Assembly (NCBI GenBank): GCA_021295965.1
Contig: JAGWBI010000023.1
Coordinates: forward strand, 33,692-73,449
Reading direction: 5' to 3'
Length of the DNA stretch: 39,758 nt
Source of the DNA: Dehalococcoidia bacterium
GTDB taxonomy: Bacteria; Chloroflexota; Dehalococcoidia; Lucifugimonadales; UBA3495
The notes under the pieces are model-generated. The model saw only the letters and a list, made by a program, of their open reading frames with translations, had not been told where the DNA came from and did not search any database. Shown here piece by piece: positions 21,804-33,685 of the stretch (the stretch's first letter is position 1; every line of letters begins with the position of its first letter). A program made the translations under genes and the position numbers.

Positions 21804-23825
21804 ATGGCAGATTACGATATCATCATCAGAAGAGGCACCATCGTTGACGGAACGCGAACCCCACGTTTCGTCAGTGACATTGCCATCAAGGACGGCAGGA
21901 TCGCCAAGATTGGCGGCCTGAACGGCGGCACCGCCGACCGCGTAATCGATGCCGAGGGGCTGATCGTTGCCCCCGGCTTCGTTGACCTGCACACCCACTA
22001 CGACGCCCAGATCTTCTGGGACCCCTATTGCACGCTATCGGGCTGGCATGGCGTCACGTCCGTGGCCCTCGGCAACTGCGGGTTCGGCTTCGCTCCCTCG
22101 CGGGTGGAGGACCAGGATCGAGCCATGCTCAGCATGACCCGCAACGAGGCCATCCCATACGACGCCATGAAGGAAGGGATGCCGTGGAACTGGGTGACCT
22201 TCCCCGACTTCATGGAAAGCCTCAGCAACACGCCCAAAGGTGTGAACTGCCTGACCTATGTGCCGCTGACGCCGCTCTATGCCTGGGTGATGGGCTGGGA
22301 CGAGGCCAAGAACCGCCGGCCCACGGAGGACGAACTGCAGGAAATGGTCCGGCTGATTCATGAGGCCATGGACGCCGGCGCGTGCGGCTGGTCGGCCCAG
22401 GTGCTGGGCGTGAACTCAGTGCAGCGCGACTACGACGGAACGCCGATGATTACCGACCTGCTCTCCGAGCACGAGGTGCTGACCTTCGCCAAAGTGCTGG
22501 CCGACCGGGACGAGGGGTTCATCGAGTTGGCCTATCAAGAGACTGGTGAGGAGGGGCGGCCCCTGGGCGAAGGGGCGCGCCTGTTCTTTGAAAAGGTAGC
22601 CGAAGTCTCCGGCCGGCCCGTGCTGTACCAGACGGTGTCCCCCAACTCCGTGCATCCCGAACAGCACCGCGAGCGCATCCGCTGGCTCGAGAGTTGCGCT
22701 GAGCGTGGCCTGCGCGTGTACGGACAGGGCAACACCCGCCGCGGGGGCTTCGAGCTCACCTTCGAAGATTGGAACCTGTTCGACGACACTCCCATGTGGC
22801 GCGAGGTTACGCTGGGCGACAAGGCCGTCAGAAAGGCCAAGATGTCCGACCCGGAGATGCGCCGGAAGCTCAAGGAAGAATGGGACTCGGGCCGCCGCCC
22901 CACCCAGGTCACCCCCGGCTCCGTGGGCAGCCTCCAGGTCATGACCCGCAAGGTGAAGATTGACATCGGCGCGGAAACCGACTTCACTCATATGCCCGCC
23001 AAGGTCAACGTCAGCGGCGGGGATTACTTCCTGGTCAACACCCGCGACGGCTACAAGCTGCTGTCGGTCACCTGCCCCCACCAGGGTGGTTGCGTGGACG
23101 ACGATGGGGATAAGTTCGTCTGCGACACCCACGGCTACGAGTACGAACACGACGGGGGGCGCTGCATCACCAACGGCGAACTGCGCCTGAAGTCCTTTGT
23201 CGTCAACGTCGTCGATGGGCGCATGATTGCCCTGGCGCCGGACGAGACCGAGGCTTCCAGCCCGCAAGCCGGCCTGACGGTGCAGGACATCGCCGACGAG
23301 CAGGGCAAGCACGTTATCGACGCGCTGCTGGACATGTGCGTTGAGGACGACCTGGCCACCGAGTTCTACGCCGACACCCAGGGTCGCGACGTGGCGCAGT
23401 ACACGGCGGAGGTGCTGGACTCCAACCACGTCGTCGCCGGTGTTTCCGACGGCGGCGCCCACGTCAAGTTCCTCACCGCCGGCATCTATCCGACGGATAT
23501 GCTGGCCTGGCTGGTGCGCGACGAACAGGTCATCACCCTGGAGGACGCTCACTTCAAGCTGTCCTACCTGCCGGCCCATTTCGGCGGGTTCCAGGACCGG
23601 GGCGCGCTGCGCGAGGGCGCGCCGGCGGACATGGTCGTCTATGACCTGGAGAAGCTGGAAGTGCTGCCTTCCGAGGTCGCCGAGGACCTGCCCGGCGGCG
23701 AGTGGCGCCGCATCCAGAAGGCCAAGGGCTACCGCTACACCCTGGTGAACGGTGAGATCACCTTCCAGGACGGCGAGCCTACCGGCGCGATGCCCGGCCT
23801 CCTGCTGCGCAACGGCCGCGGCTAG
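21804..23825 (+). CDS. N-acyl-D-amino-acid deacylase-type amidohydrolase with inserted Rieske [2Fe-2S] domain
   Basis: A 673-residue protein. The N-terminal half is a D-aminoacylase-like amidohydrolase: GFVDLHTHYDAQ with metal ligands H63 and H65, ALGNCGFGFAP with C92, and a typical substrate barrel. The last part resumes the same enzyme: LTVQDIADEQGKHVIDALLD, VAGVSDGGAH with D549, LPAHFGGFQDRGALREG, ADMVVYD. Between them, about residues 380-482, lies a Rieske domain: C424-P-H426 (CPHQGG), then C440-D-T-H443 (CDTHGYEY), followed by DGG and FVVNVVDGRMIAL, the normal Rieske strand order. The frame is open throughout, so this is one polypeptide. GAGGAGGGG before the ATG fixes the start. It is divergent from a flavin monooxygenase gene. 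The combined reaction is unknown. Confidence 0.9.
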   Translation: MADYDIIIRRGTIVDGTRTPRFVSDIAIKDGRIAKIGGLNGGTADRVIDAEGLIVAPGFVDLHTHYDAQIFWDPYCTLSGWHGVTSVALGNCGFGFAPSRVEDQDRAMLSMTRNEAIPYDAMKEGMPWNWVTFPDFMESLSNTPKGVNCLTYVPLTPLYAWVMGWDEAKNRRPTEDELQEMVRLIHEAMDAGACGWSAQVLGVNSVQRDYDGTPMITDLLSEHEVLTFAKVLADRDEGFIELAYQETGEEGRPLGEGARLFFEKVAEVSGRPVLYQTVSPNSVHPEQHRERIRWLESCAERGLRVYGQGNTRRGGFELTFEDWNLFDDTPMWREVTLGDKAVRKAKMSDPEMRRKLKEEWDSGRRPTQVTPGSVGSLQVMTRKVKIDIGAETDFTHMPAKVNVSGGDYFLVNTRDGYKLLSVTCPHQGGCVDDDGDKFVCDTHGYEYEHDGGRCITNGELRLKSFVVNVVDGRMIALAPDETEASSPQAGLTVQDIADEQGKHVIDALLDMCVEDDLATEFYADTQGRDVAQYTAEVLDSNHVVAGVSDGGAHVKFLTAGIYPTDMLAWLVRDEQVITLEDAHFKLSYLPAHFGGFQDRGALREGAPADMVVYDLEKLEVLPSEVAEDLPGGEWRRIQKAKGYRYTLVNGEITFQDGEPTGAMPGLLLRNGRG

Positions 23826-23872: not shown

Positions 23873-23981
23873 GGTTGCGGGCCGCGGGGCGATCCTCGCG
23901 GCCCTTTTCAATCCATGTACCTTGTTTTATCCTTGCCCGGCGAATCCTACCACTCTGAACCAAATCGCGGCAGGTGGAATC

Positions 23982-25526
23982 ATGAAGTACGACGTCATTG
24001 TTATCGGGGCCGGATCCGGCGGCTGCGTGGTGGCCTCCCGGCTGGCCGAGGATGCCAACCGCTCCGTGTTGCTGCTGGAGGCAGGGCCGGACTATCCCGA
24101 ATACGACCACTATCCCGACGACCTGAAGTACGGCTACAAACCCGACGCCTCCGCCCAGGGCGCGCCCCACAACTGGACCTGGTGGGCCCAGGGTTCCCCG
24201 GAGCAGACCGAGATGCTGCCCGCCCCCCGCGGCAAGGTGGTCGGCGGCACCAGCGCCATCAACGGCCAGGTGCTGCTGCGCGGCGTCCCCGAGGACTACG
24301 ACGGCTGGGCCTCCGAAGGCAACGACGAGTGGTCTTTCGTCAACGTCCTGCCCTACTTCCGCCGGATGGAAACCGACCTGGACATCAGCGACGACTTCCA
24401 CGGCTCCGAAGGCCCCATCCCGGTGCGCCGTTTCCTCCGTCAGGAGTGGCTGCCCTTCCAGAACGCCTTCGTCCAGTCCTGCCTGGAGGCTGGCTACCCC
24501 GCCGATGAGGACATGAACCATCCCGACTCCGGCGGTGTCGGCCCGATTCCCATGAACAATCCGGAAGGCGTGCGCATGAGCACGGCCCTCACCTTCCTGC
24601 GCGCCGTGCGCCACCGCCTCAACCTGACGGTGCGGTCCAGCGTCGTCGTGCGCCGCATCGTGTTCGAGGGCAAGCGGGCCGTTGGCGTGGAGGTTGAAAG
24701 CGGAGGCGAGGTGTACCAGGTGGAGGCTGACCAGATCGTTCTCTCCGCCGGCGCAATGGCTTCGCCGCAGATCCTGATGCTGTCGGGCATCGGGCCGGCG
24801 GACCACCTGAGCGAAATGGGCATCCCGGTGATCCACGAGTTGCCCGGCGTGGGCCAGAACCTGCGTGACCATCCCATCGTCGCCGTCATCTGCAAGGTGC
24901 GCGATGACCACGAGCAGGATCCTCTCGCCCCGCGCACCCAAACCGCTCTGCGCTACACCGCCAGCGGCTCGCCCGACCGCAACGATATGCAGATCACGGC
25001 GTCGTCCTTCTCCACCCCCATCGGCGGCGCAGACCCCTTCGAGCCGGGCGGCGTCCGCATCCAGTGCATTCTGGAGCTGGCCGACGGGGCCGGCGAGGTT
25101 CGCCTGTCCGCCAACGATCCGCACGTTCAGCCGTCGCTCAACTACCACTACCTGGAGGAGGAACGGGACGTGGAGCGTCTGCGGGAGGCGGTGCGCATCA
25201 GCCTCAACCTGCTGGAGAACGGCGCCTTCGGCCCCATCGTGGAGGAGATCCAACAGCCCGCACCCGAGGATCTGTCCTCGGACGAGTCATTGGACAACTG
25301 GATGCGGCGCACGGTGTTCAACACCACCCATGCCTCGGGCACCTGCAAGATCGGGCCGGCCAGCGACCCCATGGCGGTGGTTGACCAGCACCTGAACATC
25401 CACGGGCTGGAGGGCATCAAAGTCGCGGACGCCTCGGTGATGCCCAACGTGATACGCGCCAACACCAACTGCACTACCATCATGATCGGCGAACGCTGCG
25501 CCGACTGGGTGAAAGCGGGGCAATAG
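23982..25526 (+). CDS. GMC family FAD-dependent oxidoreductase (choline dehydrogenase-like), paralogue 1
   Basis: A 514-residue flavoprotein that oxidises an alcohol group to a carbonyl. The start is the ATG at 23982 (AGGTGGA upstream), giving MKYDVIVIGAGSGGCVVASR, the ADP-binding motif. The second GMC signature GKVVGGTSAINGQVLLRG and the FAD-binding LLLEAGPDYP are clear. The C-terminal active site has H450 in THASGTCKIG, then VADASVMPNVIRANTNCTTI. It is an obvious paralogue of the enzyme at 35443, with the same active-site ending, and both open with MKYDVIVIGAGS. No export signal is seen. It sits 157 bases after the Rieske-amidohydrolase, with a palindrome in the gap, and is followed by another palindrome. 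Confidence 0.95.
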   Translation: MKYDVIVIGAGSGGCVVASRLAEDANRSVLLLEAGPDYPEYDHYPDDLKYGYKPDASAQGAPHNWTWWAQGSPEQTEMLPAPRGKVVGGTSAINGQVLLRGVPEDYDGWASEGNDEWSFVNVLPYFRRMETDLDISDDFHGSEGPIPVRRFLRQEWLPFQNAFVQSCLEAGYPADEDMNHPDSGGVGPIPMNNPEGVRMSTALTFLRAVRHRLNLTVRSSVVVRRIVFEGKRAVGVEVESGGEVYQVEADQIVLSAGAMASPQILMLSGIGPADHLSEMGIPVIHELPGVGQNLRDHPIVAVICKVRDDHEQDPLAPRTQTALRYTASGSPDRNDMQITASSFSTPIGGADPFEPGGVRIQCILELADGAGEVRLSANDPHVQPSLNYHYLEEERDVERLREAVRISLNLLENGAFGPIVEEIQQPAPEDLSSDESLDNWMRRTVFNTTHASGTCKIGPASDPMAVVDQHLNIHGLEGIKVADASVMPNVIRANTNCTTIMIGERCADWVKAGQ

Positions 25527-30986: not shown

Positions 30987-31059
30987 ACACTTACATAATT
31001 GTCGGAATAGGGTGTCGCGCAACAACGCGTTTGAACAGTCCCCAACAGGAGGGTGAGCG

Positions 31060-32463
31060 ATGGCTAATCGGGAAGATATTGCATTGATGGGCCATCTGAT
31101 GCGACGGGCCGGTTTCGGCGCGACGCACGATGAGCTGCAGGAAAGGGCGGAGCAGGGATACGAAGCCACGGTGGAGGCGCTGCTCAATCCCGAGCGGTTC
31201 GAACCTGTGGACACGGAATTGCTTTACCGCTTTATGCCCGGTTACGAGGGCGCCCTCGGCCCGCCGCTGAACCAGGCCGATTGGGTCTATCGGATGGTCA
31301 ACACCGAGCGGCCGCTGGAAGAGAAGATGGCGCTGTTCTGGCACCAACTCTTTGCCACCGGCAACTCCAAGGTGGACAACCCGCCGGAACTCACCCAGCA
31401 GATCGCCATGTTCCGCAGCGTCGGGCTGGGCAAGTTCAGCGACATCCTCGTGGAATTGGCGCGGAATCCAGCCATGATCTTCTGGCTGGACAACAATGGC
31501 AACCATCGGGGCGCGATCAACGAGAACTGGGGCCGCGAGCTGCTGGAACTCTTCTCCATGGGCGTCGGCAACTACTCGGAGGATGACATCAAGGAGGCCA
31601 GCCGCGCCTTCACCGGCTGGACCATCGGTCCCAAGATTCCACGGAACCCCCTGGGCCGCTTCTACTGGAGCTTCGAGTACCGTCCCGAAGACCATGACGA
31701 CGGAGAGAAAACCTTCCTGGGTCACACTGGCAACCTCGACGGCCAGGACATCGTCGATATCGTGGTGAACCAGCCGGCCACCGCCCGATTCCTCTCCCGG
31801 CACCTCTACAACTTCTTCGTGGCTGACGAGCCGCAGGTGCCCAGCTGGAACATCACGCCGCCCAACGACCCGGACGCCATCGACCAGCTCATCGCCGCCT
31901 ACGACGAATCCGACGGCGACATACGGGCGATGCTCCGTGTCATGTTCAACTCCGACTTCTTCAAACAGGCCCGCTTCAGCCGCGTCAAGAGCCCGGCGGA
32001 ACTGGTGGTGAGCACCGTGAAACTGGCGGGCAACTATGATGCGCCGCGTCCCGGCTTCAACGCGCTGGCTTTCGAGTGCGCCTACCAGGGCCAGGAACTG
32101 CTGAACCCGCCCAGCGTCGAAAGCTGGCACACCGGTAGCGAGTGGATCGACGGTGGCGCGCTGGTGCGTCGGGTCAACTTCGCCGCCGGACTGCTCGGCG
32201 ACGTTTCCCTGCCCGGTGTCCGTTCCATGGTGGAGAACCTGCGTGGGCGCGGAGCCCTCGGCCCCGAAGAACTGGTGGATGCCTGCCTGGAGCTGGTCGG
32301 GCCCCTGGAAATCAGCGACGGCACCCGCGCCGAACTGCTGGACGAAGCGCGCGGCCACGGCGCATTGCGCTGGGACGCTGAGGCAGACGTTGCTGAATCC
32401 GAGAGACGTGTAGGCGTGATGCTGGCCCTCATCGCCGCATCGCGCGATTTCCAGTTTGCATAA
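31060..32463 (+). CDS. DUF1800 domain-containing protein
   Basis: A 467-residue protein of the DUF1800 family. It opens with HLMRRAGFGAT, the family's standard start, and carries EKMALFWHQLFATGNSKV, GAINENWGRELLELFSMG and ASRAFTGWTI, all conserved blocks. The C-terminal part includes RVKSPAELVVSTVKLAG and PPSVESWHTGSEW. These proteins occur paired with a DUF1501 protein in many bacteria, as here, and their chemistry is not established. The gene starts with a good ribosome site. No signal peptide or Tat motif is present, whereas many family members are exported. Confidence 0.93.
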   Translation: MANREDIALMGHLMRRAGFGATHDELQERAEQGYEATVEALLNPERFEPVDTELLYRFMPGYEGALGPPLNQADWVYRMVNTERPLEEKMALFWHQLFATGNSKVDNPPELTQQIAMFRSVGLGKFSDILVELARNPAMIFWLDNNGNHRGAINENWGRELLELFSMGVGNYSEDDIKEASRAFTGWTIGPKIPRNPLGRFYWSFEYRPEDHDDGEKTFLGHTGNLDGQDIVDIVVNQPATARFLSRHLYNFFVADEPQVPSWNITPPNDPDAIDQLIAAYDESDGDIRAMLRVMFNSDFFKQARFSRVKSPAELVVSTVKLAGNYDAPRPGFNALAFECAYQGQELLNPPSVESWHTGSEWIDGGALVRRVNFAAGLLGDVSLPGVRSMVENLRGRGALGPEELVDACLELVGPLEISDGTRAELLDEARGHGALRWDAEADVAESERRVGVMLALIAASRDFQFA

Positions 32464-32505
32464 CCCCGCCAATGGGACAACCCATACCCGGTATGGAGGA
32501 ATGAA

Positions 32506-33633
32506 ATGACGGCTACGACGAAAGACCCGGTGATGGTGGTTCTGCAAATGACCGGGGCCAACGACTACCTGAACACGATAATTCCCTACACCAACGGCCA
32601 TTATCACGACGCCCGGCCCAAGGTCGGGATCCCTGCCGACCAGGTTATCCCCATCAACGATGAGTTGGCGTTCAACCCCCAGATGGGTCCGATGAAGAAG
32701 CTGTGGGATGAGGGCAAGATGGCCATCATCCACGGCATCGGCTACGCGAACTCGCCGCGCTCCCACTTCCGTTCCATGGACATCTGGCACACCTGTGAGC
32801 CGGACATCGTCGGCACCGAAGGCTGGGCCGGCCGCGTCATCCGTGACCTTGATCCCCGTGGCGAGAACGTGCTGAAGGGCATCAACTTCGGCCAGGGTCT
32901 GCCGCGGGCGTTGGCTCTGCGCGGCGTGCCCATCACGTCCGTATCCAGCCTGGAATCCTACGGCGTCCTGTCCAGCGTCCCCGTGGACGCGGAACGTGAC
33001 CAACTTCTGGACCGCTTCGCCCGCATGTACTCCCCCACCGTCGGTACGGGAGCGGTGATGGACTACCTGGGCCAGACCGGTAGGGACGCTCTCAAAGGCG
33101 CGGACATCATTCGCGCCGCGCCGGAGCAGTACACTTCCACCGTCGAATACGCCGATACCCCCATCGCCAAGTACCTGCGCGACATCTCCCAGGTATATCT
33201 GGCCGATCTGGGAACGCAGCTGTTCTACACCCAACACGGCAGCTTCGACTCTCACTTCAACCAGCCGCCGATGCACACCAAGCTGTGGATCGACATGTCC
33301 CGGGCCATCAGTGACTTCTTCGATGACCTGGCCGAACACGACGCCGGCGACAACCTGATCATGGTGCTGTTCACCGAGTTCGGGCGCCGCGTCAAGGACA
33401 ACGGCACCGGGACCGACCACGGCGCCGGTGGCGCGGCCTTCGTCATCGGCAACCAGGTTAAGGGCGGCCATTACAGTTCCTATCCGTCCCTGGCGCCCGA
33501 GGATCTGACCCAGGGCGACCTTGAGCCCAACTACGACTTCCGCGGCCTCTACTCCACCGTCATCGATAAGTGGCTGGGCTTGGACCCGGTGCCTATCGTC
33601 AACGGCAACTTCGAGCAGCTGGACTTTGTGTAA
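32506..33633 (+). CDS. DUF1501 domain-containing protein
   Basis: A 375-residue protein of the DUF1501 (sulphatase-like fold) family. Visible blocks are VVLQMTGANDYLNTIIPY, MAIIHGIGYANSPRSHFRSMDIWHT, YTQHGSFDSHFNQ and VMVLFTEFGRRVKDNGTGTDHGAGGAAF, which carry the expected alkaline-phosphatase-superfamily-style metal residues (Asp and His). GGAGG before the ATG. Its usual partner DUF1800 lies 42 bases upstream, forming an operon. In many bacteria this protein begins with a Tat signal; here it begins directly with the first strand, so it should be cytoplasmic. Function unknown. Confidence 0.93.
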   Translation: MTATTKDPVMVVLQMTGANDYLNTIIPYTNGHYHDARPKVGIPADQVIPINDELAFNPQMGPMKKLWDEGKMAIIHGIGYANSPRSHFRSMDIWHTCEPDIVGTEGWAGRVIRDLDPRGENVLKGINFGQGLPRALALRGVPITSVSSLESYGVLSSVPVDAERDQLLDRFARMYSPTVGTGAVMDYLGQTGRDALKGADIIRAAPEQYTSTVEYADTPIAKYLRDISQVYLADLGTQLFYTQHGSFDSHFNQPPMHTKLWIDMSRAISDFFDDLAEHDAGDNLIMVLFTEFGRRVKDNGTGTDHGAGGAAFVIGNQVKGGHYSSYPSLAPEDLTQGDLEPNYDFRGLYSTVIDKWLGLDPVPIVNGNFEQLDFV

Positions 33634-33657
33634 AAGTCCGGCTGGGTGATCCGCTAG

Positions 33658-33685
33658 GTAGGGGCGAATAATCATTCGCCCCTAC
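33658..33685 (+). repeat. Modular palindrome, GAAT core
   Basis: The same 28-base sequence as at 10772: 12-base arms around AATC. It begins 25 bases after the DUF1501 stop. Confidence 0.88.

Follow-up and report, generated by a model that had tools for sequence, protein, structure and literature searches.

The window (the whole stretch of DNA that was analysed, 39,758 nt) contains a gene in which an amidohydrolase barrel is interrupted by a Rieske [2Fe-2S] domain within one reading frame (Table 1). In Pfam searches, the encoded protein matched PF07969 (Amidohydro_3) in two stretches (E 3.6e-24, 86.5 bits against a cut-off of 29.7) and PF01979 (Amidohydro_1; E 3.3e-7, 30.3 bits against a cut-off of 25), and between the amidohydrolase halves, at residues 392-457, it matched the Rieske family PF00355 (E 1.6e-5, 25.2 against 20.3). 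A PF00355 search of the whole genome again returned this site above the cut-off (E 2.1e-6). The first-pass annotation of this DNA had described a Rieske signature inside an amidohydrolase frame and had called for a domain search with PF00355 and PF07969; the search bears the description out, both domains passing their cut-offs, and the residue numbers given there for H63/H65, C92, C424-P-H426, C440-x2-H443 and SDGGAH (D549/H553) are correct. A chance Rieske motif is rejected, since the profile match, the predicted fold and the conservation agree, and an artefact or a chimeric assembly is rejected because the same frame is present in 12 other loci, found in a search for the architecture elsewhere that the annotation had also proposed.

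Table 1. The fused gene, its parts and neighbouring genes in the window; barrel strands carry our own numbering, read off the AlphaFold2 (AF2) model
Feature	Positions	Strand	Basis or remark
Fused gene, amidohydrolase barrel with internal Rieske domain	21804..23825	+	single ATG-started frame, 673 aa
Amidohydrolase N-part (residues 1-378): small beta-domain, barrel strands 1-7, first half of the insertion region after strand 7	21804..22937	+	PF07969, D-aminoacylase matches, AF2 secondary structure
H63-T64-H65 motif, strand 1	21990..21998	+	H63 and H65 in 100/100 rows
C92 of GNC, strand 2	22077..22079	+	100/100 rows
Rieske [2Fe-2S] domain insert, about residues 379-482	22938..23249	+	PF00355 over cut-off; predicted Rieske fold
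Rieske box 1, C424-P-H426	23073..23081	+	invariant in 13/13 fused sequences
Rieske box 2, C440-D-T-H443	23121..23132	+	C and H invariant in 13/13 fused sequences
Amidohydrolase C-part (residues 483-673): helix 7, strand 8, C-terminal beta-domain	23250..23822	+	PF07969, PF01979, AF2
S548-D549-G-G-A-H553, strand-8 motif	23445..23462	+	D549 and H553 in 100/100 rows
GMC oxidoreductase	23922-25526	+	passes the NCBIfam cut-off for mycofactocin dehydrogenase MftG (400.4 against 387.45 bits)
NACHT/STAND-type NTPase, 1097 aa	27637-30930	+	partial match to antiphage protein EruA, far below cut-off
894-aa frame	30991-33675	-	no Pfam or NCBIfam match at E 0.1

The structure prediction for which the same annotation had asked gave a D-aminoacylase-like fold for the whole protein and a Rieske fold for the insert alone. 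For the fused protein (AlphaFold2 with 62 aligned sequences; pLDDT 87.5, pTM 0.81), the nearest solved fold found by Foldseek was D-aminoacylase 1v4y (E 3.7e-30), the others being D-aminoacylases and their close kin, so that PF07969 and the barrel fold of D-aminoacylase occur together. The insert modelled alone (pLDDT 81.2, pTM 0.73) had among the matches listed Rieske proteins, Rieske oxygenases, Rieske-bearing complexes and nitrite reductase small subunits (E 1e-4 to 8e-4), the last of which have a Rieske-like fold, and it is thus predicted to form a Rieske fold. In the model, strand 7 comprises residues 305-309, the strands of the insert lie within residues 383-479 and the next helix starts at residue 493. 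In PpOngB, the insertion domain Ser290-His347 is described as coming after strand 7 and binding the substrate (PMC12017989). Since the insert occupies this same site, the Rieske domain is predicted to sit in the cap, on the catalytic side of the barrel.

A GTDB scan, from which the best 80 of 213 confirmed stretches were taken, gave 78 loci: 12 are fused (11 MAGs), 65 are unfused and without a counterpart of the Rieske insert, and one (L070) is cut by a contig end before the insertion point. With the window gene, the fusion is found in 13 loci, and its frame is intact in all of them. The close relatives of the window gene come from SAR202/Dehalococcoidia (Chloroflexota) MAGs; nine of the 12 fused loci are from Chloroflexota, and three (L054-L056, two MAGs) are labelled Alphaproteobacteria/Acetobacteraceae, a label that may mean transfer or misbinning. 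Among the 197 nearest genomes, the fusion occurs in 10, the genome of the window included, all of them among the 50 genomes of the same family, and nine of these 10 overlap the 12 loci from the GTDB scan. In 393 genomes from the class (overlapping the 197), only the genome of the window and one other, with a standalone frame, gave a match at E 1e-10. Two genomes, G125 and G136, have long frames with weak Rieske matches. No viral contig matched the fused protein. Relatives were present in 28 plasmid records, in none of which a single region spanned 80% of the query.

All four cluster ligands are invariant in the 13 fused sequences, and the protein has both marks of a Rieske [2Fe-2S] protein, a PF00355 match above the cut-off and the pattern C-x-H ... 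C-x2-H. H426 and C440 are separated by 13 residues (14 in L055), which is short compared with the usual spacing of 15-17 residues between Rieske boxes. High-potential Rieske proteins carry a disulfide; in the 13 fused sequences the additional Cys of box 1 (C430) varies and C440 is the sole Cys of box 2, so this disulfide is missing, from which we infer a ferredoxin-like, lower potential for the cluster. In 13 pairs of fused genes, dN/dS was 0.04-0.31 for the Rieske part and 0.03-0.10 for the barrel, the ratios being rough for distant pairs, where dS is near or above 1. Of the two parts, the Rieske domain diverges the more quickly: in the five most distant fused loci its identity to the window gene is 53-62%, against 80-87% for the barrel. 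This faster change is what would be expected if the Rieske domain were a neutral or decaying insertion, tolerated in a surface loop and with no present function, but the invariant ligands, a dN/dS well below 1, the intact frame in 13 loci and a parallel linkage of separate genes (see below) make such an insertion very improbable.

We then compared the barrel active site in an alignment of 100 rows, comprising fused, split and unfused proteins (L070, shorter than 480 aa, was left out). The HxH motif, the strand-2 Cys and the strand-8 Asp of D-aminoacylase are present in all 100 rows and, as in the D-aminoacylases/N-acyl-D-amino-acid deacylases (subtype V; AfDam 1m7j/1v4y, BbDam 3gip, PpOngB 9kb1), which share PF07969 and the fold, extra sequence follows strand 7. 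Set against two canonical paralogues from the genome of the window and three plasmid relatives, the subfamily motifs read HxHYD, G(N/Q)C and (S/G)DGGAH. One of these canonical paralogues was compared whole and carries Asp where the strand-2 Cys would be, and the other was read in part; their strand-8 motifs are SDAIL and TDAIL, without the extra invariant His seen at H553. The subfamily also differs in the beta-site: columns 242 and 277, occupied by His in both canonical paralogues, are without His in all 100 rows. Which His of each canonical pair binds the metal is presumed here from comparison and general knowledge. Other His lie close to these columns (column 239 in 13, 275 in 21, 283 in 33, 284 in 17 and 288 in 84 of the 100 rows), so that a two-residue alignment slip or a shifted ligand could be involved; within residues 205-330, no His is invariant, H288 included.

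In PpOngB, His222 and His252 (strands 5 and 6) together with the Cys are reported to bind the single catalytic zinc, and replacing a zinc ligand by alanine is reported to leave very low or no activity (PMC12017989). Judged from the alignment, the D-aminoacylase zinc site appears to be absent in its known form from the barrel of this subfamily. The earlier description of the barrel as D-aminoacylase-type therefore holds for the fold and fails for the zinc-binding His pair of the beta-site, and, with both of these His missing, ordinary deacylase activity should not be assumed. The unfused relatives lack them too, which makes the loss a trait of the subfamily rather than of the fusion; as a marker of Rieske partnership it is rejected, since it is shared by relatives without a Rieske domain. 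Only G38, S221, E224, E290 and K585 are found in at least 90% of the fused and split rows and in at most 10% of the unfused rows, and none of them lies within the proposed metal motifs.

The first-pass annotation had also suggested that electrons might pass to the divergent flavin (luciferase-like) monooxygenase beside the fused gene. This finds little support, an orthologue (89%) being present in one of the 12 other fused loci (L050), and the best match in the other 11 reaching 32%. The genome of the window (3.2 Mb) has 83 luciferase-like monooxygenase matches, so such a neighbour is not surprising, and the count is in line with the expansion of this family reported for SAR202 (PMC6946804). 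The trio of luciferase-like monooxygenase, fusion and GMC oxidoreductase likewise recurs in L050 only, and neither a hand-off to the former nor a link to the latter is supported as general. The genome, which is 86.6% complete, contains no mycofactocin radical-SAM maturase over its cut-off. The 894-aa frame further downstream has a 59% identical counterpart near the fused gene in L050 and may be an antisense frame.

An unfused relative of 558 aa is encoded on contig C72 of the genome of the window, and a standalone Rieske gene adjoins its 3′ end in convergent orientation. To follow such genes, 20 stretches were fetched around standalone Rieske matches and then a second set of 20, giving 40 regions out of a larger set. 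In 14 of the first 20 stretches, the Rieske gene and the amidohydrolase gene form a convergent pair; in two (L142, 9515-13061, and L143, 5456-9016), a third arrangement is found, with Rieske, cupin and amidohydrolase (613 aa) genes on one strand, the cupin being identified by Pfam in L142 and by homology to it in L143. The 7-kb contig L133 has a Rieske gene of the clade without an amidohydrolase, and the three remaining stretches hold other, non-clade Rieskes. The standalone Rieskes of the clade thus have an adjoining split amidohydrolase in 16 of 17 loci; since 14 of these 16 linked pairs are convergent, they do not form one operon. Nine of the 10 fused genomes from the nearest-genome search also carry the convergent pair, and the tenth, G035, has the L133 Rieske. 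Hence, one Rieske clade is partnered with this barrel subfamily in three gene arrangements.

The sister set consists of 23 non-clade Rieskes, from the second 20 stretches and the three of the first set. None of the 23 has an amidohydrolase beside it by profile (Fisher p = 3e-10 for clade against sisters, a value that is only indicative given stretches of 3.6-20 kb and kinship among the genomes). A Rieske oxygenase gene lies near 10 of the 23 sisters, near none of the 17 clade loci and near none of the 13 fused loci, as judged with two SAR202 and two own-genome proteins as queries, which could miss other oxygenase types; two of the ten sister-linked oxygenases were checked by Pfam and consist of Rieske and LigXa_C. 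The amidohydrolase therefore takes the place where the sister Rieskes have an oxygenase, and this swap of partner is what argues for the Rieske protein being the electron donor of the barrel. It also bears on another reading, in which the Rieske domain serves as ferredoxin to an oxygenase from another locus, the fusion doing no more than anchor it to the hydrolase that handles an intermediate of the same pathway. The oxygenases near sister Rieskes, together with a genome that has nine PF00355 matches in all besides its many luciferase-like monooxygenases, are compatible with such a carrier, but it is made improbable by the lack of any oxygenase of the types searched near the clade and fused loci, by the luciferase-like and GMC neighbours being common to a single other fused locus, and by the amidohydrolase being the partner that recurs in all three arrangements.

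In the 66 unfused loci (L059-L124), a Rieske gene was found by profile (E 0.01) in two only (L080 and L061), and a bare Rieske motif in L118 looks like chance. Two genomes of this set, searched whole, gave no Rieske match of the clade type at E 0.01. The neighbours conserved around these loci are SDR-like genes (17 loci) and luciferase-like genes (15), many of the loci being from close Reyranella relatives, and several further neighbour clusters resemble antisense frames; no redox partner recurred in all 66. Three relatives on sphingomonad plasmids lie among catabolic genes for CoA-transferase, P450 or dehydrogenase, with no Rieske gene annotated nearby in a gene table that is incomplete.

As the unfused relatives in other phyla keep the conserved residues and so rarely have a Rieske gene, the chemistry of the barrel need not require the Rieske domain. 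The protein might then be a hydrolase or lyase whose metal site is unusual and in which the Rieske cap acts as a redox or oxygen switch, or as a scaffold, with no electron transfer into the reaction. Such a gating or structural role would also suit an insert that changes faster than the barrel and that lies in the region shaping the substrate pocket of solved relatives. That Rieskes of the same clade also exist as standalone partner genes is easier to reconcile with a mobile electron carrier than with an element of the cap, and 10 of the 23 sister Rieskes lie near Rieske oxygenases; with this evidence against it, we consider the role unlikely, though less so than that of a carrier for a third enzyme.

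In the Rieske tree (51 rows), the fused sequences form one clade (100/98), and the fused and linked Rieskes fall on one side of a branch (100/99); when all 23 sisters were included (53 rows, 115 columns, duplicates removed), the 30 fused and linked rows stood opposite the 23 sisters (100/99). The barrel tree, made without the insert (100 rows; a quick search with SH-aLRT only, in which long branches were flagged), also places the fused rows in one clade (100), which groups with Rieske-less relatives of Proteobacteria and other phyla, the split barrels being a separate group. Thus, two branches of the barrel subfamily that stand well apart share a single Rieske clade as partner. The pairing would either be old and then lost in relatives or have been made twice, and both readings point to a working partnership.

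A small Rieske protein partnered with an amidohydrolase-superfamily barrel is also a feature of the amidohydrolase-related dinuclear oxygenases or AROs (AibH1H2 with AibG/AibF; SfbO; PtmU3), which belong to PF04909; here, it is fused in 13 loci and adjacent in 16 of 17 split-type loci. The hydroxylase AibH1H2, of the amidohydrolase superfamily, is described as part of a system that also comprises a Rieske ferredoxin, AibG, and a reductase, AibF (PMC7782822). Further PF04909 oxygenases such as SfbO are reported from a search of Rieske neighbours, and one found in this way was then shown to hydroxylate with O2 (PMC10811679; PMC10401708). The role of the Rieske protein in these systems is described as assigned from the gene cluster and from expression of the whole system, SfbO having been assayed with ascorbate (PMC10811679).

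The fused protein is not itself an ARO, since it belongs to PF07969 and has other motifs, and an explanation by PF04909 is rejected, as this family gave no match up to E 0.1. The ligand set of AibH2 (Asp25, His27, His211, Glu265, Asp337, His340) is not reproduced by motif: HxH replaces Asp25/His27, no counterparts of His211 and Glu265 were found in the motif comparison, and D549/H553 resemble Asp337/His340 in that the last motif has an Asp followed shortly by a His, with a different spacing. The Rieske domain, moreover, lies within the same chain. By analogy, the fused protein may nevertheless work like the AROs. The genome of the window has a PF04909 gene about 1 kb from the split amidohydrolase; its strand-8 region, read by eye, is GSNFPSS, without the Asp and His of AibH2, and it falls in no cluster with genes of the other compared loci.

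In the alpha subunit of Rieske non-heme iron oxygenases (KshA, biphenyl dioxygenase alpha), a Rieske domain is followed by a helix-grip catalytic domain. The fused protein likewise joins a Rieske domain and a catalytic metal domain in one chain, but in another layout, with the Rieske domain lying within the catalytic domain, which is an amidohydrolase barrel. CMP-Neu5Ac hydroxylase joins a Rieske domain to a hydrolase (metallo-beta-lactamase) fold that is used for hydroxylation; it differs in its fold and in having its Rieske domain at a terminus rather than internally. A search of the open-access literature, judged by titles and the opening of abstracts, found no publication on a Rieske-amidohydrolase fusion, although a table in some other paper or supplement may list the architecture. 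The earlier statement that no described enzyme joins the two thus stands for a single chain and needs qualifying for separate proteins, since oxygenases of the amidohydrolase superfamily have been described whose Rieske ferredoxin is a separate protein (AibH1H2/AibG; SfbO).

Taken together, these observations suggest that the reaction of the barrel may be driven by electrons instead of being a simple hydrolysis. The reading that we prefer, at a probability of roughly 45%, is a two-domain metalloenzyme in which a ferredoxin-type Rieske domain inserted in the cap feeds electrons to the barrel metal, as a single-chain analogue of AibH2/AibG. The Rieske cluster would take electrons from a general reductase and hand them to a barrel metal (Fe, or Mn/Fe) with ligands from among H63, H65, C92, D549 and H553, and this metal would activate O2 and hydroxylate or oxidatively cleave a small catabolic substrate. 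To the wider proposal of a new oxygenase class on the Amidohydro_3 branch, in which H-x-H, Cys and D-x3-H make a redox metal site out of the former zinc site, the barrel has its own Rieske donor in the active-site cap and most of these genomes also encode the system as two genes, we give slightly less credence again.

If the Rieske domain does drive the barrel, oxygenase chemistry would have arisen on the amidohydrolase fold outside PF04909 too, and such proteins, when annotated as amidohydrolases or deacylases, would be misnamed. The SAR202 bacteria are described as abundant marine organisms with a presumed role in oxidising organic matter that withstands degradation (PMC6946804). The single-chain protein makes the question of the electron donor directly testable.

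Among the sister Rieskes, three (L135, 9042-11626; L167; L179) have an amidase-type gene 25-55 bp downstream of the Rieske gene. In L135, Pfam confirms Amidase and the next gene is a Nitroreductase, and L167 and L179 also hold a Rieske oxygenase; these groups are probably catabolic clusters.
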